Shown here one piece after another: positions 5,013 to 23,529 of a stretch of 64,000 nt of DNA (within the stretch, counting starts at the first letter, position 1; each line of letters starts with the position of its first letter). Position numbers and translations under genes: made by a program. Source of the DNA: Limnobacter alexandrii (GTDB taxonomy: Bacteria > Pseudomonadota > Gammaproteobacteria > Burkholderiales > Burkholderiaceae_B). The notes beneath the pieces were generated by a model. That model made no database searches and had not been told where the DNA came from. It worked only from the letters and a program-made list of their open reading frames with translations. Location of the stretch: NCBI RefSeq assembly GCF_005871185.1, contig NZ_SWKN01000010.1, positions 124,001 through 188,000 on the forward strand. The letters run 5' to 3'.

Positions 5013-5103
5013 GGAGAGATGGATGAGTGGTTTAAGTCGCACGCCTGGAAAGCGTGTATAGGTTAATAGCCTATCGGGGGTTCGAATCCCCCTCTCTCCG
5101 CCA
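5013..5103 (+). tRNA. tRNA-Ser (anticodon GGA), prophage integration site
   Basis: A 91-base class II tRNA with acceptor GGAGAGA paired with TCTCTCC and an encoded CCA. The anticodon stem is CACGC/GCGTG with loop CTGGAAA, giving anticodon GGA, which reads UCC/UCU. There is a long serine-type variable arm, and the T arm is CGGGG GTTCGAA CCCCC. The gene is intact: the phage brought in a copy of the 3' 41 bases. The tRNA's own terminator is no longer adjacent and is now found beyond attR at 43691-43722. Confidence 0.97.
5063..5103 (+). repeat. attL core, 41-bp direct repeat
   Basis: The last 41 bases of tRNA-Ser (from TTAATAGCC in the variable arm to the CCA) recur exactly at 43642-43682. The flanks differ on both sides (AGG/AGC before, CAGT/GAAA after), so the repeat is exactly delimited. 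Together the two copies define a 38,579-bp integrated unit. Confidence 0.95.
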
Positions 5104-6878: not shown

Positions 6879-7916
6879 TTATTTCGCAGGTTTTATCACC
6901 GCGACTTTGCGCCTGTAGTGCTTCCTCGTAACCGCTGTTGTTGAGTGCCCCAAAAGCTGGGCAGCACGCTCATCAGACTCAGCATCGCTACCCACCTTGC
7001 CCCTCAAATCATGCTCGGTGAAGTGTTCCACCACCGTCTCTTCCTCGTTCACCCGCGCAATAAAATCTTTCCACAAGCTATCAAAGGCACCAGTACGGCC
7101 AACCTCGTTCACCATGCACAGCCCGCGCCTGGTACAAAACAAGTACTTGCTCAATGCTGGCCGGGCCTGCAATGCCTCATCAACAGCCTCGCGCAGCAGC
7201 GGGGTCCATTCAAACAGAATACCTTTGCCGTTTTTGTGAGTCGGGCTGAACAAGCCATCATCGCGAATGTCGCTCATTGAAAGGCGCAGCATGTCGGCCT
7301 TGCGCAAGCCTGTGAGCAACTTCAGCTTAATGTACGCCTTGCACATTTTTGTGCCGTAGTGGCTGCTGTCTTCGTGGGCCAATAGGGCCAGAATTTCTTC
7401 ATCGGTTACATAGCGGTCGCGCTTGGATACGCCCACCTTAAGCTTCACATCCTTCAATGGATGCATGCGAATGTCCCCCCAGCCAATTGCGTACTGCAGG
7501 GCTGATTTCAATATCGCAATTTCATGCTTGCCCGATACCTTGGCAGTTCGCTTGTCCAGGTACTGGTAGCAGTTGATTGGCTCAAGATCGCTGATCAGCA
7601 TGTCGCCAAACACCTTGCGGATTCTTGTTAAGTAGTGTTGCTGTGATCGCTGCGTAGTCTTTGCCAAGCCAGGCATCACCCGAATCAAGTACTTGTCCAG
7701 CAGCTGCGCAACGGTCTGGATGCTGCCGTTTGACTGGCCAACTTTCAGCGCAAATGTTCGGTGCGCCTCTTCAAGGCTGTTGCCGAGTTTGAATTCCGTT
7801 TTGTGATCCCAGTGATGCTCCGCACCCTTGGGCACCTGGTAGTAGTAGGCCTTGCCTTTCATGCGCCAACGGCTGGGCAGGCCACGGTTTTCAATATTGC
7901 GCTTTCTGGGTGCCAT
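6879..7916 (-). CDS. int: Tyrosine-recombinase phage integrase
   Basis: A site-specific recombinase that inserts and excises the prophage at tRNA-Ser. It has 345 residues: a small N-terminal arm-binding region, a SAM-like core-binding domain (about 68-150) and a catalytic domain (about 165-335). Catalytic residues visible are R205 (TGLRKADMLRL), a lysine in the beta-hairpin (228 or 231), H302/R305 (EHDLR), H324 (LLGHST) and the nucleophile Y334 (KHYRRK). It is the last gene of the leftward early operon, one base after the DUF4224 gene. The usual place next to att is occupied by the two-gene cassette, which separates int from attL by 1.8 kb. Confidence 0.95.
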   Translation of the reverse strand: MAPRKRNIENRGLPSRWRMKGKAYYYQVPKGAEHHWDHKTEFKLGNSLEEAHRTFALKVGQSNGSIQTVAQLLDKYLIRVMPGLAKTTQRSQQHYLTRIRKVFGDMLISDLEPINCYQYLDKRTAKVSGKHEIAILKSALQYAIGWGDIRMHPLKDVKLKVGVSKRDRYVTDEEILALLAHEDSSHYGTKMCKAYIKLKLLTGLRKADMLRLSMSDIRDDGLFSPTHKNGKGILFEWTPLLREAVDEALQARPALSKYLFCTRRGLCMVNEVGRTGAFDSLWKDFIARVNEEETVVEHFTEHDLRGKVGSDAESDERAAQLLGHSTTAVTRKHYRRKVAVIKPAK

Positions 7917-8791: not shown

Positions 8792-10633
8792 TCACGCTGC
8801 AATCTCCTTTCTCATTTCCACATAGTTGGCCCGCACTAACGCCTCGGCCAGTGGTGGGCAAACGCTGTTGCCGCATCGGGCGACCTGAGCGGTTTTGGTG
8901 AATATCTTTCCTTTGCCATCGTGCTCAATCACGTAATCCAAAGGAAAACCTTGTGCTGTAAACAGTTCGCGAGGGGTCAGCATGCGCAAGCCGATGTCGA
9001 CGATGGCGTACAGTTCACCGCGCACTGTTACAAGGGCAAATCGATCCTTTGTTGTGATGGTGTGTAAGGGTTGGCAAAGCTCGGGGTCTTGGTCGGTGCC
9101 GTAGTATTTGATCAAAAACGCTCGCACCTCGGCATGGTGGGTGCCTTGGGCGCTGATCGTGTGGAGAGGTTCATCGGCCCCGCTGCCCACGTTGTCGCCA
9201 CGCAGCTTCACCATATGGCTGGTGACAAGGCCAGCGGTCGCGCCGCTTGCAGTCACTGTGTTCAATGGTTTGCCAACGCCACGAACCCCATGACTAAATC
9301 GTTTTCCGCCTTTTTTACCTTCGCCGTGGCCAAGGTGAACTAAATTGACTGCCACAACGCCTTGCGTGATCGCCGTACCTGGTCGGGCCTGCTCGCCACC
9401 TGCCGTAATGGTGTGCATTGGGCTATAGCATTCAAACCCTACGCTGCCGGTGTTGAACTTGGTCATGAATGCGGTGATAAGACTGTGATGGTCTACGCCG
9501 GTAACCGTGCCCAAAGGGTCATTCAAATCGCTACCAACTACGCCTGTGTAGTGCTTGGCTATAAACGCACCGACCAGCGCATGCTTGCCTCCACTGGCCA
9601 CTATTGTGCCCAATGGTTTATCCAAACCCGGTACGCGGGGCGACTGGCCTTCTCTCTCGCCATATCCAACCTGAATTAATGTCGGGGCTGCTACGGCAAA
9701 GCCGGGCGATGATGTAACCGTGCGTAGTGGTTCATTGAGAGTCCAAGCGTTTTTTCCCCGACCGGTAGTTTTCGAATTGGCAGTGTTCACAATGAACGGT
9801 TCGGTGCTGTTCACCACGTACCGCATAATTCCTTTCGCAATACGCCTGCATGTGGCATCGGCCAGTGGCTTCTTTCGTTCAAAGATTGAAGGGCAGGGCA
9901 CTGACCAATCAATGCACTCAGCCGCTGTGCGCCATGGTTCCAGTTTGCCTGCCTTCACTTCGGGGCTTGCGGCGTCACCATGGGTGGGCTGTGGCCACAC
10001 AATTGGCATGCCATCGCATCGGGCAATCAGAAACAGGCGTTTGCGAATGGTGGGTGTGCCGTAGTCGCATGCACGCAGTTCTTTCCATTCCGCCTGGTAG
10101 CCGTAGCTTTTGAGCATCTTTACAAAGTTTTTGAAGGTGCGGCCTTTGCGCTTTGGGCATGGGTAGAAGTCACCTTCGGGGCTGGGTGACAGTGGCCCCC
10201 AGTCTTGGAATTCCTCAACGTTCTCCAGCATGACAATCCGAGGTTTTACCGTGGCCACCCAGCGCCGAACCACCCAAGCCAGCCCACGGATGTTCTTTTC
10301 AACAGGCTTACCACCACGTGCTTTGCTGTGGTGTTTGCAGTCTGGCGAAAACCACGCAAGCCCAACTGGTCGCCCCTGACAAACTTCAAGCGGGTCTACA
10401 TCCCACACCGATTCACAGAAGTGTCTGGTGTGAGGGTGGTTCACCTCGTGCATGCGCACCGCATCGATGTCATGGTTGATCGCAATATCCACCTGCCGAC
10501 CAGTAGCCATTTCAATGCCCATGCTGGCACCGCCACCACCTGCAAAGTTGTCGATGATTAGTTCATCGAAATTGAATGGGACTTGCGGGTTGCTGCGATA
10601 CAAAGTGTGCTTTTGCAGTGAAATACTACGCAT
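8792..10633 (-). CDS. DNA (cytosine-5) methyltransferase with a repeat-built recognition region
   Basis: Transfers a methyl group from SAM to C5 of cytosine in DNA. It has 613 residues, longer than most stand-alone C5 enzymes. Motif I is FAGGGGASMG (30-39), the catalytic motif is SPDCKHHS with C99, motif VI is LENVEEF (136-142), motif VIII is IRKRLFLIA (196-204), and the C-terminal motifs are LTPRELFTAQGFP and CGNSVCPP. Between motifs VIII and IX, residues 300-530 hold seven copies of a PL-x-T-V/I-T unit at about 302, 340, 373, 405, 456, 489 and 522, in place of a compact target-recognition domain. It belongs to the leftward early operon. It probably protects phage DNA from host restriction; no cognate endonuclease is seen. 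Confidence 0.93.
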   Translation of the reverse strand: MRSISLQKHTLYRSNPQVPFNFDELIIDNFAGGGGASMGIEMATGRQVDIAINHDIDAVRMHEVNHPHTRHFCESVWDVDPLEVCQGRPVGLAWFSPDCKHHSKARGGKPVEKNIRGLAWVVRRWVATVKPRIVMLENVEEFQDWGPLSPSPEGDFYPCPKRKGRTFKNFVKMLKSYGYQAEWKELRACDYGTPTIRKRLFLIARCDGMPIVWPQPTHGDAASPEVKAGKLEPWRTAAECIDWSVPCPSIFERKKPLADATCRRIAKGIMRYVVNSTEPFIVNTANSKTTGRGKNAWTLNEPLRTVTSSPGFAVAAPTLIQVGYGEREGQSPRVPGLDKPLGTIVASGGKHALVGAFIAKHYTGVVGSDLNDPLGTVTGVDHHSLITAFMTKFNTGSVGFECYSPMHTITAGGEQARPGTAITQGVVAVNLVHLGHGEGKKGGKRFSHGVRGVGKPLNTVTASGATAGLVTSHMVKLRGDNVGSGADEPLHTISAQGTHHAEVRAFLIKYYGTDQDPELCQPLHTITTKDRFALVTVRGELYAIVDIGLRMLTPRELFTAQGFPLDYVIEHDGKGKIFTKTAQVARCGNSVCPPLAEALVRANYVEMRKEIAA

Positions 10634-14292: not shown

Positions 14293-14418
14293 TCATTTGC
14301 TCAGTCTCACTGTCTGCACTTTCCCCTCTACCTGGGCATTCTCTTGCCCAGCCCAGTAGCCAATGGCAAAGCCCATTACCAAAACGTAAAAAATCACGGT
14401 GACTCTCTTGATCTTCAT
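14293..14418 (-). CDS. Single-helix small phage protein (41 aa)
   Basis: The reverse strand from the ATG at 14418 reads MKIKRVTVIFYVLVMGFAIG..., a basic start, one membrane helix (about 6-22) and a polar tail ending VRLSK before TGA. The ATG overlaps the stop of the upstream 14415-14852 gene (ATGA), which supports translation. The function is unknown. Its 3' end lies 11 bases from the convergent DUF4145 gene. Confidence 0.6.
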   Translation of the reverse strand: MKIKRVTVIFYVLVMGFAIGYWAGQENAQVEGKVQTVRLSK

Positions 14419-14852
14419 GCAGCCACCTTCTCGGGGTAGAGGGTGGGCTTCAGTTCTTCAAACTTCGCCAGTACGGCCAAGCGTTCATGCGACCTTGTGT
14501 GCCTTGGCCCAACAATTCCGCTGCGTTCATTGGCTACAGCCCAAGCCGTTTTCTGTTCGTCGCTCATCAAGTTGAGCGTCATTTGAATCAGCTTGTGGCA
14601 GTGCTTCAGGTGCCGGATGGTGTCGCGTAGGTAAATGCGGCGCATGGCTTCCATGCGGTTGATCGCTTCCTGGCGGCGAAATGAATACCCGATGGTTCCG
14701 TCTGCTGGCATTTCGTGCACGCACTGCTCGGCCAAGCGCTGGCGCTGCTGCACTGTGAGCGTACGAATGCCGTTGGTTGCAATGGTGTTGGCTGCCTTCA
14801 GTTCTGCAAAGGCGCAGTCTGAAAGCCAGTTTTTAAGTTGGTTTGAAGGCAT
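14415..14852 (-). CDS. First gene of the leftward early operon, hypothetical (145 aa)
   Basis: Not recognised. A helical, arginine-rich protein (MPSNQLKNWLSDCAFAELKAAN...), without membrane helices. I chose the ATG at 14852 rather than 14894 because the promoter -10 box and an operator occupy 14883-14900, placing transcription start near 14876. The only ribosome-site candidate, GTGAG, lies inside the 3' arm of the inverted repeat at 14857-14880, so its translation may be controlled by that hairpin. By position it corresponds to lambda N, but no sequence similarity is visible. Confidence 0.65.
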   Translation of the reverse strand: MPSNQLKNWLSDCAFAELKAANTIATNGIRTLTVQQRQRLAEQCVHEMPADGTIGYSFRRQEAINRMEAMRRIYLRDTIRHLKHCHKLIQMTLNLMSDEQKTAWAVANERSGIVGPRHTRSHERLAVLAKFEELKPTLYPEKVAA

Positions 14853-14856
14853 CGAT

Positions 14857-14880
14857 GTCTCACATGCGTTGATGTGAGAC
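14857..14880. promoter_or_regulatory. Perfect 9-bp inverted repeat in the PL leader
   Basis: GTCTCACAT-GCGTTG-ATGTGAGAC lies between the PL -10 box and the first start codon (four bases further on). In the transcript it would form a stem holding the likely ribosome site; in DNA it could be an operator at the start point. Either would control the first gene of the leftward operon. Confidence 0.6.
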
Positions 14881-14882
14881 AG

Positions 14883-14924
14883 ATTATTAGGCATGCCTTA
14901 CTTTAAAGTCAATAGGTAAGCCTA
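14883..14924 (-). promoter_or_regulatory. PL promoter with OL1 and OL2 operators
   Basis: Leftward promoter: -35 TTGACT (14912-14907), an 18-base spacer, -10 AATAAT (14888-14883). The operator TAGGCATGCCTT (14888-14899) fills the spacer and reaches the -10, and TAGGTAAGCCTA (14913-14924) abuts the -35. Both match the operators at the cI/cro boundary with the same 25-bp spacing, so CI and Cro should repress this promoter. Confidence 0.8.
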
Positions 14925-14946
14925 ATATTTTAGTTTTGTCAAAAGA

Positions 14947-15681
14947 TTAATCGAGATTGATCTTTTTCCAATTTTTTTGCAAATAGAGCATGTCAGCTAA
15001 GGCATGCGCTGCGTCATCGCTGATATGCGTTGTTTCAGAGTATTTGCCACTTAGTCTTACCACTTTCTTATCGGGGTTTTTTGAAATGCAGGTAGCCAAT
15101 TCCCTAGCTTTGCCGCTAAGGGGAACGTCAATCGATTCATAAACACTACCTCTGCCGACGTCTCGGTATGCGTCCTTGTAAGGTAAAGAAAGTACAAAAG
15201 TTTTCTCTCCGCATCTAGCGTGAATTTCTTTAAAAAAAATCCAGCTTTCGCCGGTATATCCTGTGCTGAGATAAAACTTAGGTTTTCCGTTTACTGTTTC
15301 AAGTTTGATTTCAAGGGCATAGAAAAGGCTTGGCACATCTTTGTGTCTGTAGAATTTTGAATCTGTAATTGGATCTTGGTAGTAAAGCTCTAGGCTATTT
15401 TTGGACGGTGCAGGTCTAACATTGGCAACTGGATTTAATATGCTTTCGATGCTACTTCCTTGCAGAAGCAAATTGGCGATGTTGGCAGCTTTCCCGCCCT
15501 CTTCAGTTCCAGGGTACCTATCTCTGACAAGCATTGCCTGAGCGGTTATTGCATCTCGACTGTGCACATTCGTGCTAGAAAGCATGCTTTGTAATTTTTT
15601 AAAATCTTCGGAAGCACTTTGAGCCAAAGCTGCATTTATCCAAAAAGCGAATCCAATAAAAACAAGTGTTTTTTTCAACAT
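14947..15681 (-). CDS. Secreted protein encoded directly behind cI (244 aa)
   Basis: Not recognised. A clear Sec signal peptide (MLKKTLVFIGFAFWINAALA, cleavage before QSASE) predicts a periplasmic product. The mature part is mixed alpha/beta with two cysteines (about 170 and 209) that could form a disulfide. The ATG at 15681 follows GAGGA, which overlaps the cI stop codon, so it is translationally coupled to the repressor and made in the lysogen. It occupies the place of lambda rexBA, between cI and OL. Lysogenic conversion or superinfection exclusion is therefore the leading guess, but nothing in the sequence proves it. The DNA is AT-rich. Confidence 0.75.
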   Translation of the reverse strand: MLKKTLVFIGFAFWINAALAQSASEDFKKLQSMLSSTNVHSRDAITAQAMLVRDRYPGTEEGGKAANIANLLLQGSSIESILNPVANVRPAPSKNSLELYYQDPITDSKFYRHKDVPSLFYALEIKLETVNGKPKFYLSTGYTGESWIFFKEIHARCGEKTFVLSLPYKDAYRDVGRGSVYESIDVPLSGKARELATCISKNPDKKVVRLSGKYSETTHISDDAAHALADMLYLQKNWKKINLD

Positions 15682-15689
15682 GAAGTCCT

Positions 15690-16418
15690 CTAAAGTGCTC
15701 GACCGTTCCACGCCCATACCACCCGACCGTGCACGGTAACCTCGTGATTCCCATTAAGCACGTCTACGGTTTTAACTGTTGGATTATCGCTGCTGACTTC
15801 AAAGCTGCCATCCATTCGTTGTCGCACTCTTTTAATAAAAAGCCGCTCATGTGCACTCAGTACATAGACCCCGTCAATGTCTATTTTGGATTTTGAAACA
15901 TCAACTAAAAGCAAATCGCCATCTAAAAAAGTTGGCTGCATGCTGTCCCCAGCTCCAGTGATTACTCTTAGGTTGTCTGGCCTGGCCTTTACGTTGCGCT
16001 CTAACCAATATCGACTCACTGGTAGGACATCGATTATCTGATCGCCATCGTAATTTAATGGCTCACCGCCCCCCATGGACGGCATCGCTGCGAGAACCGG
16101 TATTTCTATTTTTCCCGAATGCTCGGCACAGCTAGCCTTAATAAGGTTTTGTGTTAGATCTTGGTGTACGTGGTTGATTGGATCAATATGTTCAGTGCCC
16201 AGCCGCATTGGGCCTCTTCCGGTTGCCAGCCAATCAGGCGTCACATTTAAAAATCGTGCAGCTTTTATCAAGTTGCTGGCTTCAATGGTTTTAGTTTTGC
16301 CAGAAAACCAGTCATTTACCGATGGCGTGCTAATACCTACGGCGTCAGCTATTGATTTTTTTGTTTTCCTTGGAGGGCCAAGCCTGGCTTGTTCCAAACG
16401 CTCTGCTAGTGATTTCAT
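15690..16418 (-). CDS. CI/LexA-type prophage repressor (HTH plus S24 peptidase)
   Basis: 242 residues. An N-terminal XRE helix-turn-helix (about 8-65; KKSIADAVGISTPSVNDWFSGK) binds operators. The C-terminal S24 domain carries the nucleophile S159 (GDSMQPTF) and general base K196 (RLFIKRV), so RecA-stimulated self-cleavage and SOS induction are expected. The region near residue 110 (VLAAMPSMGGGE) is where the cleavage bond would lie, but it is not the classic Ala-Gly pair. Divergent from cro, it is followed by a coupled secreted-protein gene. A 12-bp operator (16419-16430) covers its own ribosome site, suggesting autoregulation. Confidence 0.93.
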   Translation of the reverse strand: MKSLAERLEQARLGPPRKTKKSIADAVGISTPSVNDWFSGKTKTIEASNLIKAARFLNVTPDWLATGRGPMRLGTEHIDPINHVHQDLTQNLIKASCAEHSGKIEIPVLAAMPSMGGGEPLNYDGDQIIDVLPVSRYWLERNVKARPDNLRVITGAGDSMQPTFLDGDLLLVDVSKSKIDIDGVYVLSAHERLFIKRVRQRMDGSFEVSSDNPTVKTVDVLNGNHEVTVHGRVVWAWNGRAL

Positions 16419-16483
16419 TAGGTAATCCTAACGTATGTAGGATTAGGTATGCCCTTGACATAAATGATAGGCATGCCTAATAT
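16419..16483 (+). promoter_or_regulatory. OR region: three operators and the PR promoter
   Basis: PR: -35 TTGACA (16455-16460), a 17-base spacer, -10 TAATAT (16478-16483). Operators: TAGGCATGCCTA (16468-16479) between the boxes, TAGGTATGCCCT (16444-16455) just upstream of the -35, and TAGGTAATCCTA (16419-16430) directly in front of the cI ATG. Centre spacings are 24-25 bp. TAATCCTA-N7-TAGGATTA (16423-16445) is also a perfect inverted repeat that would form a hairpin over the cI ribosome site. Confidence 0.82.
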
Positions 16484-16513
16484 TTGTGGGTGTTCAAATA
16501 TTGAAATCATCAA

Positions 16514-16771
16514 ATGAGCCCAGACAAAATTATTGATGAACTAGGTGGAACGACCGTAGTAGCCAGTTTTTTTGGAATTCGTCCACCCTCTGTTTCTGAG
16601 TGGAGATCGAACGGCATCCCAAAAGACCGGCTCATCTGTCTGGCTGCGATGTGTGAAAGCAAGGGCATTTCATCTCGAAAGGAGTTGTTTCCTAACGAGT
16701 GGCATTTAATTTGGCCAGAGTTGAAAAATGTCGCCATGGATCCACCGGAAAGGAGTTCCTCACTTGTCTAG
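16514..16771 (+). CDS. Cro-like repressor
   Basis: 85 residues, a single Cro/YdaS-type helix-turn-helix: IIDELGGTTVVASFFGIRPPSVSEWRSNGIP (about 6-36) aligned with Cro-family regulators that sit divergent to CI. It is the first gene of the PR transcript and would shut off cI by binding the shared operators. The start follows PR by about 25 bases; no strong ribosome site is visible. The 3' end overlaps the next gene by 44 bases. Confidence 0.8.
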   Translation: MSPDKIIDELGGTTVVASFFGIRPPSVSEWRSNGIPKDRLICLAAMCESKGISSRKELFPNEWHLIWPELKNVAMDPPERSSSLV

Positions 16772-18158: not shown

Positions 18159-18695
18159 ATGAATATCGACGATGTAAACCATGGCTTGTCGGTTCGCGAT
18201 GCGGCTTACCACACGGTTCACGATTACCCAGGCGGTGCCATGGCCTTGGGTATTCGCATGGGCGTAAATGGCATGACATTGAGCCACCAGGTGAACCCAA
18301 ACAATGTGGGAAAGTTTCACTTAAGCATTGAAAAGGCCACTGACATACAGGCTTTATCGCAAGATTATCGAATTCTTCACAGCATGGCCCGTGAACTTGG
18401 CCATGTGGCTATCAAGGTTGACCAGGCTGAAGAAGAAAACGTACTGGCCAGCATTGCAGATACGGTTAAAGAGTTTTCTGGATACCTTACTTCGGTATCA
18501 GACGCTGTGGCTGACAGCCGGGTAACCGATAACGAACTTCGTGAAATCGATGAGCACTTGTGTGAAATGGTGCAGCAGGCCAACCAATTGCGCGCTGTTG
18601 TCGCTCACATGAACGATCAGCTAAAGCAGCGGGTTGTTGACCTTCACGGCAAAGGAAAAGCTATTACCGCCAAAATCCGCAAGGGCAGGGGATAA
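18159..18695 (+). CDS. CII-like phage regulatory protein (phage CP76 family)
   Basis: 178 residues. Residues 10-75 (SVRDAAYHTVHDYPGGAMAL, VNPNNVGKFHLSIEKA, YRILHSMARELG) match the phage CP76/CII-type regulators that choose between lysis and lysogeny in many proteobacterial phages. The C-terminal half is a long helical region likely to oligomerise. GGAGGGG lies upstream of the ATG. It is placed in the PR operon after cro, as expected for a CII role. Confidence 0.8.
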   Translation: MNIDDVNHGLSVRDAAYHTVHDYPGGAMALGIRMGVNGMTLSHQVNPNNVGKFHLSIEKATDIQALSQDYRILHSMARELGHVAIKVDQAEEENVLASIADTVKEFSGYLTSVSDAVADSRVTDNELREIDEHLCEMVQQANQLRAVVAHMNDQLKQRVVDLHGKGKAITAKIRKGRG

Positions 18696-18698
18696 CCC

Positions 18699-18950
18699 AT
18701 GGCTCGCCCGCTTTCAGATCACGCAAAAAAGTTGATTGACTACCTTGATGCCAAACCGGCCACCTTGGCAGCAGCTGCACGTGATTTGGGCATTGAATAT
18801 AAGGCTGCTGACAAACTGATTAATCGTTTGAGATATGCCGAGCGGGTTTTGGTTTTAAAGAAAGAACGTTTTGCTCATTGCCGCAAGCCAGTTGCCTTGT
18901 ATGCCACACCGCAGTGGTGGGAGCGCAATAAGGACAAGGAGGCTGCATGA
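18699..18950 (+). CDS. Small winged-helix-like phage protein (83 aa)
   Basis: MARPLSDHAKKLIDYLDAKPATLAAAARDLGI... has the pattern of a compact HTH: a helix, a turn and KAADKLINRLRYAERVLVL, a possible recognition helix and wing. Just upstream of the replication-type gene with a four-base overlap (ATGA), it may act in replication or control. No specific family is recognised. Confidence 0.65.
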   Translation: MARPLSDHAKKLIDYLDAKPATLAAAARDLGIEYKAADKLINRLRYAERVLVLKKERFAHCRKPVALYATPQWWERNKDKEAA

Positions 18951-20026
18951 GCGATGCTGTTGATCGCGAAGCGCAAGCGCAGCTGGTGCAGCAAATTAAA
19001 GCGTTGCCCGACAATGACCGGCGCGAGGCCCTTGAAGAGTTTGAAGAAATCTACGGGCGTTCCCGCGCTGAAAGCCTGCGCAAGGAAATTGAAACACAGA
19101 TCGCCGTCGATGCTGGCCGCTTGGTGGGGTGGGATGGTGAACAGTTCACCAACCTGTCCCCTGAAAAGCTGGCTGCATGGAAGCGTGCATACCCTGGTGT
19201 TGCCATTGATAGGGAAGTAGCCAAAGCCACAGCCTATTTGCAGGCCAATCCTGGTGCAGTTAAAAGCCGGTATGAACGGTTTATGACCAACTGGCTGAAT
19301 AAGGAATTGAGCCGCTCTGTGCGCACCAGGCGTAGGGAAGGAAAGGTGAGCATGTCGCAACTGCACATCATGTTTTTGCAGCAACACGACGCCACACGCA
19401 TATGCCCAGCCAATGAACTGATTGAGCACCTAAAGCGCAGCCCTGTGGGAATGCGCTACGTGGTCGACTGGTTGTTCGACCGGATGATCAACATATGGGG
19501 CTCTGCATTCTCATCGAAGTGGGCCGGCCTTGATGTTGCTCAAATGAAAAACGAGTGGTGCAGCGACCTGCACAAGTTAACCATTGATGAGATTAAAACG
19601 GGTGCAAGGCGCATTAAGGAGGAATGCACATTCCCAGTGTCCCGCCCCGAATTCATCCAGTTGTGCCGACCCACTCAAAGCATTGAAACCACATTCATGC
19701 AGTGCGCAAGCCTTGCAGCCAGGCACCTGCATGACCATGCAACGCCATGGCCCGGTGCTGTGGAGTACTGGACAGCACAGCGCTTTGGCATGGCCGCACT
19801 GGCTCAATCCACCTGGGTTGCTGCCAAGGCGCAATTCACAGGTATTTATCACGATTGCCTTACCCAGCAAGAGGAGGGCGTTCTGCCCGCTTTGCCGCCA
19901 GCTGTACCGCGCATAGTTGGCCCTGCTGAGAAGGTGCGTACTGATGCAGGCAGCGCCGCCCTGGCGCATGCACGAGCCTTGCTGAAAGGCAAGGGAATGC
20001 AGCAAAGCCATGGAGGCCGTATGTAA
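18947..20026 (+). CDS. Probable phage replication protein
   Basis: 359 residues, soluble. The N-terminal half is highly charged. The segment AVKSRYERFMTNWLNKELSR (about 103-122) and the helical domain around 150-250 (WLFDRMINIWGSAFSSKW..., TIDEIKTGARRI) resemble phage helicase-loader / replication P-type proteins, which often have a W-x-R-M/D-R-M motif here. Position after the CII-like gene and before the Q-like gene also fits the lambda O/P slot. No initiator (O-type) gene is obvious, so the preceding HTH protein may serve that role. Function is inferred mainly from context. Confidence 0.55.
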   Translation: MSDAVDREAQAQLVQQIKALPDNDRREALEEFEEIYGRSRAESLRKEIETQIAVDAGRLVGWDGEQFTNLSPEKLAAWKRAYPGVAIDREVAKATAYLQANPGAVKSRYERFMTNWLNKELSRSVRTRRREGKVSMSQLHIMFLQQHDATRICPANELIEHLKRSPVGMRYVVDWLFDRMINIWGSAFSSKWAGLDVAQMKNEWCSDLHKLTIDEIKTGARRIKEECTFPVSRPEFIQLCRPTQSIETTFMQCASLAARHLHDHATPWPGAVEYWTAQRFGMAALAQSTWVAAKAQFTGIYHDCLTQQEEGVLPALPPAVPRIVGPAEKVRTDAGSAALAHARALLKGKGMQQSHGGRM

Positions 20027-20382: not shown

Positions 20383-20799
20383 TTGCGGGCGAACCACTTT
20401 GATGAAAAGCTGAAGAACTGGGGCGAATGGATGCGCAAGGGCAAGGAAGGCGGGCTGGGCTTTCGCAACAGTCAACTGGCCGGGTTGATGGGCCGAAGTG
20501 AGCGGGCCGAGGCAGGCTGCATTATTCCGATTGACGATGTAGATGCCAGCCGTATCGATGATGCTGTGCGGTCGCTACCCATTGAGCTTCAGCGCATAGC
20601 CATGGCCTGGTATGTAGAGGGCTTAAGTATTCGTCAGTGCGCAAAAAAGCTGAGCTGCAGCACCACCACTGTGCCTGTACGGGTTGATGACTTGTGCCGT
20701 GGCGTTGAAGTTTGGTGGTCCAATATGCGGGCAAGAAAAGAAAGTTTTTCCCGCGATGGGAAAAAAAGAGTTTCGGCGATTAATACACTTTGTGATTAA
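20383..20799 (+). CDS. Q-like late antitermination protein
   Basis: 138 residues from a TTG start at 20383, chosen because GGGGGAG lies six bases upstream. Residues 60-115 (SLPIELQRIAMAWYVEGLSIRQCAKKLSCSTTTVPVRVDDL) have the helix-turn-helix arrangement of phage antitermination Q and related sigma-like regulators. It is the last gene before the terminator at 20872 and the HNH/terminase late operon, the expected position for a late-gene activator. The exact Q subfamily is not certain. Confidence 0.65.
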   Translation: MRANHFDEKLKNWGEWMRKGKEGGLGFRNSQLAGLMGRSERAEAGCIIPIDDVDASRIDDAVRSLPIELQRIAMAWYVEGLSIRQCAKKLSCSTTTVPVRVDDLCRGVEVWWSNMRARKESFSRDGKKRVSAINTLCD

Positions 20800-21239: not shown

Positions 21240-21353
21240 GCAGGGGGGGCGGGTTCAATCTCTAAGACCTCTCGGCTGTAGACCGATCCCGAACCTTTAT
21301 TTGCACAACCGCGAAATGAATAGGGGGTACCCCCTCAGGAATTGGAGAAGGAT

Positions 21354-21857
21354 ATGGCAGGTAGACCACCCAAGCCATCCGCATTGAAACTTGTGGAAGG
21401 TAATCGCGGCAAGCGCGCCACCACCAAGCAAGAACCCGATCCAGATTATCTGTTTGACCTCACCGCGCCGCAATGGCTGCCTGCCCGTGCCAAGTTGGTG
21501 TGGGAAGAAGTGGCGCCGCAACTTTCGCGCGCAAAACTATTGACCGAGGTTGATGTCCAGGCGCTGGCCATGGGCTGCGTGGCGATTGCGCAGTATCGGG
21601 CAGCGGTGGCCAAAACAGGCGAAGACTTGATCAAGTCGAAAGTTGAACTGAACGATGAAGGCAAAGAAGTGGTTGTTGGAGAACACATCAACCCGTGGGC
21701 ATTGATTCAATCAATGACATTTAAGCAAGCCATGGTGATTTTTCAGCAGTTTGGAATGTCCCCAGCTGCGCGCACTCGAATCGCGGTGAACCCGCAAGGC
21801 AGTTTATTCCCGAATGACAACTCGCAAAGCAAAGCAGGCAAGTACTTCCAGACGTGA
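21354..21857 (+). CDS. Terminase small subunit, P27 family
   Basis: 167 residues starting MAGRPPKPSALKLVEGNRGKR, the standard start of P27-family small terminases. It recognises the packaging site on the phage genome and loads the large subunit. GGAGAAGG precedes the ATG at 21354. It overlaps the large-subunit gene by 44 bases. Confidence 0.9.
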   Translation: MAGRPPKPSALKLVEGNRGKRATTKQEPDPDYLFDLTAPQWLPARAKLVWEEVAPQLSRAKLLTEVDVQALAMGCVAIAQYRAAVAKTGEDLIKSKVELNDEGKEVVVGEHINPWALIQSMTFKQAMVIFQQFGMSPAARTRIAVNPQGSLFPNDNSQSKAGKYFQT

Positions 21858-23529
21858 TCCTGCGTCCGCCTTTGCCCAAAAAGTTGTTGCTGGAAAAATT
21901 GTTGCTGGTCCCCATGTTCGCGCAGCGTGCAGTCGCCACCTGAAAGACCTTGATACAGGCCACCTCCGTGGGCTGAAGTTTGATACGGATTCTGCAAGCA
22001 GGGCGATTGGCTTTTTTGCTGATGTGCTGCGATTAAATGGGGGCGAGTACGAAGGCAAGCCTTACGAATTGCTTGACTGGCAGTGCTTCATTGTTGGCTC
22101 GCTGTTTGGTTGGATGGGCCCCGATGGCTACCGTCGATTTCGCGTTGCTTACGTTGAAACTGCTAAGGGTTCAGGTAAATCGCCACTGGCTGCTGGCATA
22201 GGCTTGTATGGGTTAATGGCCGATGGTGAGGCGGGCGCTGAAATTTATGCAGCGGCGACCAAAAAAGACCAGGCCATGGTTTTGTTTCGCGATGCCGTGG
22301 CCATGGTTGATCATTCGCCGGAGCTGTCTGCTCGAATCACAAAATCGGGCACTGGTCTGAATGTTTGGAATTTGGCCTGGCTGCAGACACGTAGTTTTTT
22401 TAAGCCGATAGCGTCTGATGATGGTCAGTCTGGGCCGCGCCCACACATTTCGCTTTTGGATGAATTGCATGAGCACAAGGATGCTTATGTCATTGAAATG
22501 CTGAAGGCTGGGCAGAAAAGCCGAAGGCAGGCTTTGCAGCTCGCGATCACAAACAGCGGTACCAACAAGCAAACAGTGTGTTGGGATTATCACGAGTACG
22601 GTGCCAAGGTTAGCGCCGGTAGCCTGCAAGACGATACGTTTTTTGCATTCATCTGCTCGCTGGATGAAGGCGACGATCCATTTAAAGACGAGAAGTGCTG
22701 GTACAAGGCCAACCCGAGTTTGAGGTTTGGTTTACCAGGCCTGAGGTACTTGCGCGAGCAGGTTTCGCAGGCGCGTGGCATGCCCAGCAAGGAAAGCATT
22801 GTTCGAAGACTTAACTTTTGCCAGTGGGTAGAGGCTTCATCGCCGTGGATAAGTGGCGATGTTTGGTTTGCCTGTAAAGACAGCGACTTTGATGTAGAAA
22901 GCCTGCGTGGCCGCAAGTGCTACGGCGGGCTGGATTTGTCCAGCACCCAAGATTTAACCGCCTTGGTACTGCATTTTGAACCAACAGAAAATGACCCGCG
23001 CTGGCGGCAATTGGAGTGGTTTTGGCTGCCAGGTGATGGCTTGCATGAAAAGGGTGACAAAGATCGCGTGCCTTATACCCGCTGGAGGCAAGAGGGGCAC
23101 CTTGAAGCGCTGCCTGGTAAGGCAATCAACAAACTTGCGGTGGCTCGAAGAGCCGCTGAAATTGCTTCTATCTATGACTTGAAAGCCTTGGCTTTTGACC
23201 GTTGGCGAATTGAAGACTTTGTCATGATTTGCGAGCAGGAAGGCATTGATTTGCCTTTGCAGCCCTTCGGCCAGGGTTTTAAAGACATGGCCCCGGCTGT
23301 GGATGAATACGAGCGTCGCTTGATTGGTGGTGAGTTGGCACATAGGGGTAATCCGGTTATGACCTGGTGCGCGGCCAATGCTGTTGTGATGAGCGACCCA
23401 GCCGGAAATAGAAAAGTTGCAAAGGAAAAGGCAACTGGCCGTTGCGACGGAATTGTCGCGGGAATTATGGCTGCAGGGGTTTCCATTACAGCCCAACAGG
23501 ATTCGGAAGTTTCGTTCTGGGATAGCTGA
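21814..23529 (+). CDS. Terminase large subunit (HK97 type)
   Basis: 571-residue packaging motor and nuclease. The ATPase has Walker A ETAKGSGKSP (about 114-123) and Walker B ISLLDELHEH (about 212-221). The RNase-H-like nuclease half begins near GGLDLSSTQDLTAL (about 372) with acidic residues continuing at AFDRWRIEDF (about 465). The length is normal for this family. It translocates DNA into proheads through the portal encoded 2 kb downstream. Confidence 0.95.
   Translation: MTTRKAKQASTSRRDPASAFAQKVVAGKIVAGPHVRAACSRHLKDLDTGHLRGLKFDTDSASRAIGFFADVLRLNGGEYEGKPYELLDWQCFIVGSLFGWMGPDGYRRFRVAYVETAKGSGKSPLAAGIGLYGLMADGEAGAEIYAAATKKDQAMVLFRDAVAMVDHSPELSARITKSGTGLNVWNLAWLQTRSFFKPIASDDGQSGPRPHISLLDELHEHKDAYVIEMLKAGQKSRRQALQLAITNSGTNKQTVCWDYHEYGAKVSAGSLQDDTFFAFICSLDEGDDPFKDEKCWYKANPSLRFGLPGLRYLREQVSQARGMPSKESIVRRLNFCQWVEASSPWISGDVWFACKDSDFDVESLRGRKCYGGLDLSSTQDLTALVLHFEPTENDPRWRQLEWFWLPGDGLHEKGDKDRVPYTRWRQEGHLEALPGKAINKLAVARRAAEIASIYDLKALAFDRWRIEDFVMICEQEGIDLPLQPFGQGFKDMAPAVDEYERRLIGGELAHRGNPVMTWCAANAVVMSDPAGNRKVAKEKATGRCDGIVAGIMAAGVSITAQQDSEVSFWDS

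Follow-up and report, generated by a model that had tools for sequence, protein, structure and literature searches.

The window analysed here, a 64,000-nucleotide stretch of the Limnobacter alexandrii genome, very probably carries a lambdoid repressor switch whose operators are placed like those of phage P22, as indicated at the level of sequence by its sites, promoters and genes and by its recurrence in relatives. In this locus, a cI gene and a cro gene diverge from common operators that lie between them on the rightward promoter PR, and a second operator set of the same sequence type lies on a leftward promoter, PL, beyond cI.

The five 12-bp operators proposed in the earlier note were all found in the sequence exactly where it had put them. 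As read from the sequence, OL1 (TAGGCATGCCTT, 14888-14899) is located inside the PL spacer and OL2 (TAGGTAAGCCTA, 14913-14924) adjoins the PL -35 box. On the other side of cI, OR3 (TAGGTAATCCTA, 16419-16430) adjoins the cI start codon. OR2 (TAGGTATGCCCT, 16444-16455), with two mismatches to the operator pattern, is the weakest site, and its final base is the first base of the PR -35 box; OR1 (TAGGCATGCCTA, 16468-16479), a perfect palindrome, lies inside the PR spacer. PR (16455-16483, + strand) is composed of a TTGACA -35 box (16455-16460), 17 bp and a TAATAT -10 box (16478-16483). PL (14884-14912, - strand) has the same geometry, with TTGACT (14912-14907), 17 bp and TAATAA (14889-14884); the version given by a promoter scanner has an 18-bp spacer with AATAAT. 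Start-to-start spacings are 25 bp at OL and 25 and 24 bp at OR, in agreement with the 24-25 bp put forward previously, and OL and OR are 1.5 kb apart. Four of the operators, OR1, OR2, OL1 and OL2, sit on a TTGAC promoter, as the earlier note proposed for every site; OR3 does not, and adjoins the start codon of cI.

The CI-type repressor (15690-16418, - strand, 242 aa) comprises an HTH_3 domain, with the recognition helix TPSVNDW, and a Peptidase_S24 domain (Pfam E 2.3e-16). S159 and K196, which we take to be the catalytic pair of the S24 family, are present and are both kept in the relative L002. CI can thus be read as an S24 repressor with a Ser-Lys pair, for which self-cleavage is predicted. 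The Cro-type repressor (16514-16771, + strand, 85 aa, helix PSVSEW) is P22_Cro-like, with an E value of 1.6e-5 and a score of 25.1 bits, below the Pfam cut-off of 30.2; its BLASTP alignment with P22 Cro (E 1e-6) extends over only 31 aa. It also matches PDB 8co2/8c7k, named Cro antirepressors, which presumably derive from the CP-933P system (paaR2/ydaS). No clear ribosome site was seen by eye in the PR leader, from the -10 box to the cro ATG (16484-16513). Between cI and OL, a gene of 244 aa (14947-15681, - strand) has a signal-peptide-like start by eye and found no match in Pfam and PHROG searches. From its position, it would hold the slot of a lysogen-expressed cargo gene, as rexAB does in lambda. 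The length of this slot differs among relatives, as for lysogen cargo. The first gene of the PL transcript (14415-14852, - strand, 145 aa) probably begins at the ATG at 14852, to judge from its position after the PL leader; searched as the longer ORF 14415-14894, it gave a weak match to phrog_11952 (unknown function) and none in Pfam.

The surrounding region is read as a prophage having early genes in lambdoid order, with a CII-like regulator (18159-18695), a protein that matches lambda P very weakly (E 0.05; 18947-20026), a likely Q-like antiterminator (20383-20799) and a terminase (21342-23529). The left arm of the prophage encodes a 613-aa DNA methyltransferase-like protein (phrog_116, 1.2e-97; 8792-10633, - strand). 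An ORF at 6879-7916 (- strand), tyrosine recombinase-like by eye, lies near a tRNA-Ser (5013-5103), and the two are perhaps the integrase and the attachment site.

Recurrence in relatives is the independent proof of the operator array. Sequences having an operator cluster at most 15 nt from an ORF of at least 120 aa were collected, giving 61 loci, near-identical phages included. Three OR and two OL sites of the TAGG/TAGC type are present in 46 of them. The remaining 15 comprise seven with three OR sites and no OL found, six two-site clusters, among them L020, which was caught at its OL, and two with three sites of each kind. The window and its copies are absent from the 61 loci because their OR2 falls below the threshold; locus L001 carries a copy of the phage found in the window. 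Once near-identical entries had been discarded and the window included, the set comprised 28 OR and 43 PL regions. In 40 of these 43 PL regions, the two OL sites are spaced by 25 bp, and TTGA directly follows OL2 in all 43, many of which were found via a pattern containing TTGAC. The distance from OL to OR ranges from 475 to 5442 bp across loci. In the nearest distinct relative, L002, CI is 64% identical, the layout is kept and the spacer bases have changed, with OL and OR 3.4 kb apart, as against 1.5 kb in the window. Thus, the switch described in the earlier note, in which shared operators flank cI on divergent promoters of one geometry, does recur in other phages.

The array has been found in varied sources. 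Among loci from named bacteria, the whole array is present in 6/11 (Pseudomonas sp. M47T1, Laribacter MAG, Castellaniella MAG, Ca. Glomeribacter, Pelomonas MAG and a Lysobacteraceae strain); L014 has the OR sites only, and L015, L018, L021 and L022 are without the full array. A Betaproteobacteria-1 sRNA (RF02932, 71.1 bits) was observed in the Pelomonas MAG locus (L019, 641-765, - strand), about 5 kb from cI. Three of four named phage records picked by HTH or Cro likeness have the array, namely Pseudomonas phage F_TK1718sp/PAK and the Acinetobacter phages Ab1656-2 and vB_AbaSI_1; it is absent from the fourth, MW202674. The pattern of an operator pair with a promoter matches at least 120 viral contig stretches. 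The array is absent from the six records examined (L156-L161) of 381 phages alike in the whole CI; among these six, the S24 part of CI is no guide to the operators. Among relatives from the same genus and family, the searches matched a single genome out of 16 at E up to 1e-20 and a single one out of 268 at E up to 1e-25, in both cases the genome of the window itself. Across the class, the exact pattern of operator pair with promoter occurs in two genomes out of 369, including the one that contains the window, and its reversed control showed no match among the matches listed for these 369 genomes.

What sets the sites apart is their tie to promoters, not the single matches. In the whole genome (3.49 Mb), the operator pattern gives 16 rows, corresponding to 15 places, and the reversed control gives 19. 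Thus, of the genome scan suggested in the earlier note, it can be retained that five of the 15 places are here, whereas single sites are not special, the reversed control having no fewer. When up to one mismatch is allowed, the window has 18 matches against a shuffle mean of 10.75, and as many are reached in 2/100 shuffles. A blind scan of all 256 half-sites, with one mismatch allowed, yields no three-site chain in the window; it misses the OR triple because OR2 has two mismatches. Applied to shuffles, the same scan finds a three-site chain for some half-site in 22/200, a 3+2 set in 3/200 and a TAGG three-site chain in 0/200. Site pairs 22-26 bp apart with TTGA ending the first number two in the window, one per strand, compared with a single such pair and no divergent set across 1000 dinucleotide shuffles. 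This last test was devised with the sites already known, and the main weight is therefore placed on the recurrence in relatives.

The placement of the operators was compared with those of lambda and P22, each measured on its own record, by counting the bases from each operator centre to the A of the start codon. In the window, the centres are 6.5, 31.5 and 55.5 bp upstream of the cI AUG. In lambda, they are at 19, 42 and 66 bp. In P22, the values are 9.5, 34.5 and 57.5 bp before the start codon, and the message is annotated to start at 4, which puts the centres 5.5, 30.5 and 53.5 bp from the annotated transcription start. It should be noted that OR of P22 is annotated as one block, within which the three sites were placed by match to the 18-bp P22 operator consensus, a fourth, poorer match at 19.5 being set aside. 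The positions thus match P22 and not lambda. The lambda-style reading of the earlier note had to be abandoned as regards placement, a lambda geometry being rejected once the two records had been measured. OR2 at -42 from the PRM start, a lambda-type feature, is absent from the window, taking the predicted start at the cI AUG. The P22-type feature, an OR3 next to the start codon of the repressor with the PRM -10 box inside it, is present, the -10 box here being a predicted one. P22 C2 activates PRM from OR2, and CI might do likewise here. In the P22 immunity region (c2/cro), OR3 likewise adjoins the start codon of the repressor and holds the -10 box TAAGAT; the fusion of OR3 to a -10 box was accordingly dropped as a novelty, P22 having the same plan. 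Moreover, the HTH part of CI pairs with P22 C2 in BLASTP (E 5e-5). P22 nevertheless differs in its operators, which are 18 bp long and of ATTTAAG type instead of 12-bp TAGG-N4-CCTA, in the three OL operators named in its record, against two OL sites here, and in its annotated message, which starts 4 nt before the ATG. With lambda, the locus shares the gene order, the divergent early promoters and three OR sites (23-24 bp apart in lambda). A leaderless cI, predicted here, is also described for lambda in the available parts of two reports (PMC4488713, PMC8630535). However, the lambda operators are 10.5-12.5 bp further from the AUG and 17 bp long, lambda has an OL3, BLASTP gives no match between the Cro proteins, and the two CI are alike only in the S24 part.

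OR3 adjoins the cI ATG in 51/61 loci as well as in the window. On the cI strand, the sixth base of OR3 is a T in all 28 non-redundant rows, whereas the same base is T in 3/28 at OR2 and 2/28 at OR1, the spacing there varying by one base. The search patterns had left this base free. It is again T in 30/30 rows of a second collection in which contact with the ATG was not required, including six rows (L035, L040, L053, L069, L081, L122) where cI seems to start further downstream. The simplest reading of this conservation is that OR3 would provide the PRM -10 box, TAGG(A/C)T or TAGCCT, with transcription starting right after it. The predicted PRM core of the window would then cover 16418-16430 (- strand), with the -10 box TAGGAT at 16430-16425 and transcription beginning with the first base of the cI ATG (16418). 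Wherever the ATG directly follows OR3, the cI message would be leaderless. A G at -14, as in an extended -10 box, is found in 21/28 non-redundant rows; in place of the TG of such a box, the window has CG at -15/-14, and TG is present in 15/30 rows. No -35 box of PRM is conserved across the 28 non-redundant OR regions.

The earlier note had seen in OR3 a site covering the ribosome site of cI, and OR3 could in principle be chiefly translational, its AGG serving as the Shine-Dalgarno sequence of cI. Indeed, AGGA stands 7 nt from the ATG in the window. Yet 6/28 non-redundant rows have TAGCCT and hence no AGG, so that a role as ribosome site is not general. In addition, the T at base 6, constant in both collections, is not demanded by a ribosome site. 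Finally, Acinetobacter-like rows (L163, L164, L035, L050) keep TAGGAT despite a GAGGAT or AAGGAT downstream, before a later ATG. The translational role is thus the weaker reading and appears very improbable.

The two OL sites bear on how far the lambda mechanism may apply. The best candidate for a third OL site in the window scores only 5 of 8; the three OL sites needed for an OL3-OR3 pair, another lambda-type feature, are thus absent and that pair is unavailable here. Elsewhere, a third OL-like site (score at least 7, 17-32 bp upstream) was found in 13/70 PL-type rows, against a background of 1.1%. Three of these 13 (L056, L146, L093) were judged to be OR regions because CAT adjoins the third site; the ten that remain include rows like the Acinetobacter phages, in which the spacing is 19-21 bp. 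Looping could still involve OL1-OL2 and OR1-OR2. In phage 933W, the loop reportedly has no role at PRM, to go by the title of one study. The full lambda mechanism, in which PRM is activated by CI bound to OR2 at -42, octamers bridge OL and OR by a loop, and an OL3-OR3 pair turns PRM off, would agree with the common gene order, with a spacing of 24-25 bp close to the 23-24 bp of lambda OR, and with the 1.5 kb between OL and OR; furthermore, a study of lambda loops, as far as its available text goes, compares a pair of three-operator sets with a pair of two-operator sets (PMC5880393). It is made improbable by the centre of OR2, 31.5 bp and not 42 bp before the cI AUG, by the lack of a third OL site in the window, and by the example of 933W, itself devoid of OL3 according to the accessible part of its description (PMC5977221).

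The question of which repressor reads these operators was addressed by covariation, using 44 CI N-termini at most 90% identical. The fifth residue of the CI PSVxxW motif is acidic in 26/28 loci with TAGG-only OR1 and OR2 and in 0/16 loci with a TAGC half-site. The TAGC loci form one clade, with a single split in the CI tree, and therefore count as one event, not 44. This covariation supports the view that CI may be the reader of the operators. A covariation of Cro with the operators, striking in a first, smaller set, was not borne out in the fuller set (helix acidic in 13/27 vs 4/12, p 0.49; no Cro helix found in 5/44 loci). In the window, and in most of the rows compared, the recognition helices of CI and Cro both have the PSVxxW form, which suggests that the two proteins may have the same target. 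This last observation speaks against a mode of action like that of the telomere phages, in which CI binds all five sites and Cro OR3 only. Such a mode would be in keeping with the Cro helices, which do not track operator changes, and with phiKO2, for which the part of the source available describes three OR sites, two OL sites and a Cro that binds OR3 only (PMC4997575). It is considered rather unlikely. Nevertheless, since phiKO2 has the same 3+2 plan, binding of Cro to all five sites is not to be assumed.

The two early leaders differ. A perfect 9-bp hairpin, GTCTCACAT-loop-ATGTGAGAC (14857-14880, - strand), lies close to where the predicted PL transcript begins. Compared with shuffles, 65 non-redundant PL leaders have a mean folding z of -1.52, with 34% below -2, versus a mean of -0.02 and none below -2 for 30 PR leaders. 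The boxA core GCTCTTT is present in 8/65 PL leaders (background 1.6%) and in 0/30 PR leaders; in the window, no boxA (Nus) site was seen close to PL or PR. A common RNA fold of PL leaders is weak in one class and was not found in another, and at Rfam gathering scores no leader was covered in nine loci or in positions 5000-45000 of the window. Together, the PL leader hairpins and boxA might represent an antitermination element of the nut or put kind.

For the switch as a whole, with its P22-like placement, a mechanism is proposed in which occupancy, cooperativity, the start point of PRM, self-cleavage and the binding of Cro are all predicted. In the lysogen, CI dimers would occupy OR1 and OR2 as well as OL1 and OL2, neighbours lying about 25 bp apart, and would thereby cover PR and PL. 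PRM, with the left half of OR3 as its -10 box, would make a cI message beginning at its AUG. Filling of OR3, by CI at high level or by Cro, would cover the -10 box and start of PRM and stop cI. Upon SOS induction, self-cleavage of CI through its S24 domain would free PR and PL.

Several elements of this layout have counterparts in known systems. The telomere phages N15 and phiKO2 (immB) also have five operators, three at OR and two at OL, so that two OL sites are not new as such. Within the available text, they differ in their 16-bp sites with TA-N10-TA, in their plasmid prophages and in a CB repressor without self-cleavage residues (PMC4997575). The cryptic prophage CP-933P (paaR2/ydaS) resembles the locus by a leaderless repressor gene and by repeats overlapping PRM and PR, whereas the repeats are 18 bp long and of another sequence, and the system drives a toxin-antitoxin operon, as the portion of the report at hand indicates (PMC8630535). 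Leaderless repressor messages are already known, according to the accessible parts of the sources, for lambda, PY54 and paaR2 (PMC4488713, PMC8630535). Other close counterparts are F_TK1718sp/PAK, Ab1656-2 and vB_AbaSI_1, which have the same operator type and layout and a CI HTH 53-60% identical; Ab1656-2 and vB_AbaSI_1 differ by a third OL site 19 bp away and by a leader, containing a purine-rich stretch, ahead of the cI ATG. No description of the TAGG-N4-CCTA operator code and its spread was found in titles and the beginnings of abstracts, which does not imply that it is absent from print. The work likeliest to hold the code is that of Hall, Lefevre and Cordes in 2005, where operators were reportedly predicted from Cro helices.

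It can tentatively be proposed, with somewhat less than even confidence, that TAGG-N4-CCTA is common to a large, apparently undescribed immunity group, comprising phages whose hosts are Pseudomonas, Acinetobacter and further beta- and gammaproteobacteria. Repressors of phages from unrelated hosts would then cross-bind and could confer cross-immunity. In the same proposal, the code would have changed once, by descent, to TAGC half-sites, in connection with the replacement of Asp by Gly in the CI recognition helix. What was a guess made by eye has become a switch backed by about thirty non-redundant relatives, with the layout of P22 and not of lambda. It predicts that the cI message begins at its AUG, that repressor is bound at -31 of PRM and that an Asp-to-Gly swap in the CI helix shifts the preference from TAGG to TAGC. 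Should the common code prove functional, short DNA motifs would allow cross-immunity to be predicted among phages that infect different hosts.
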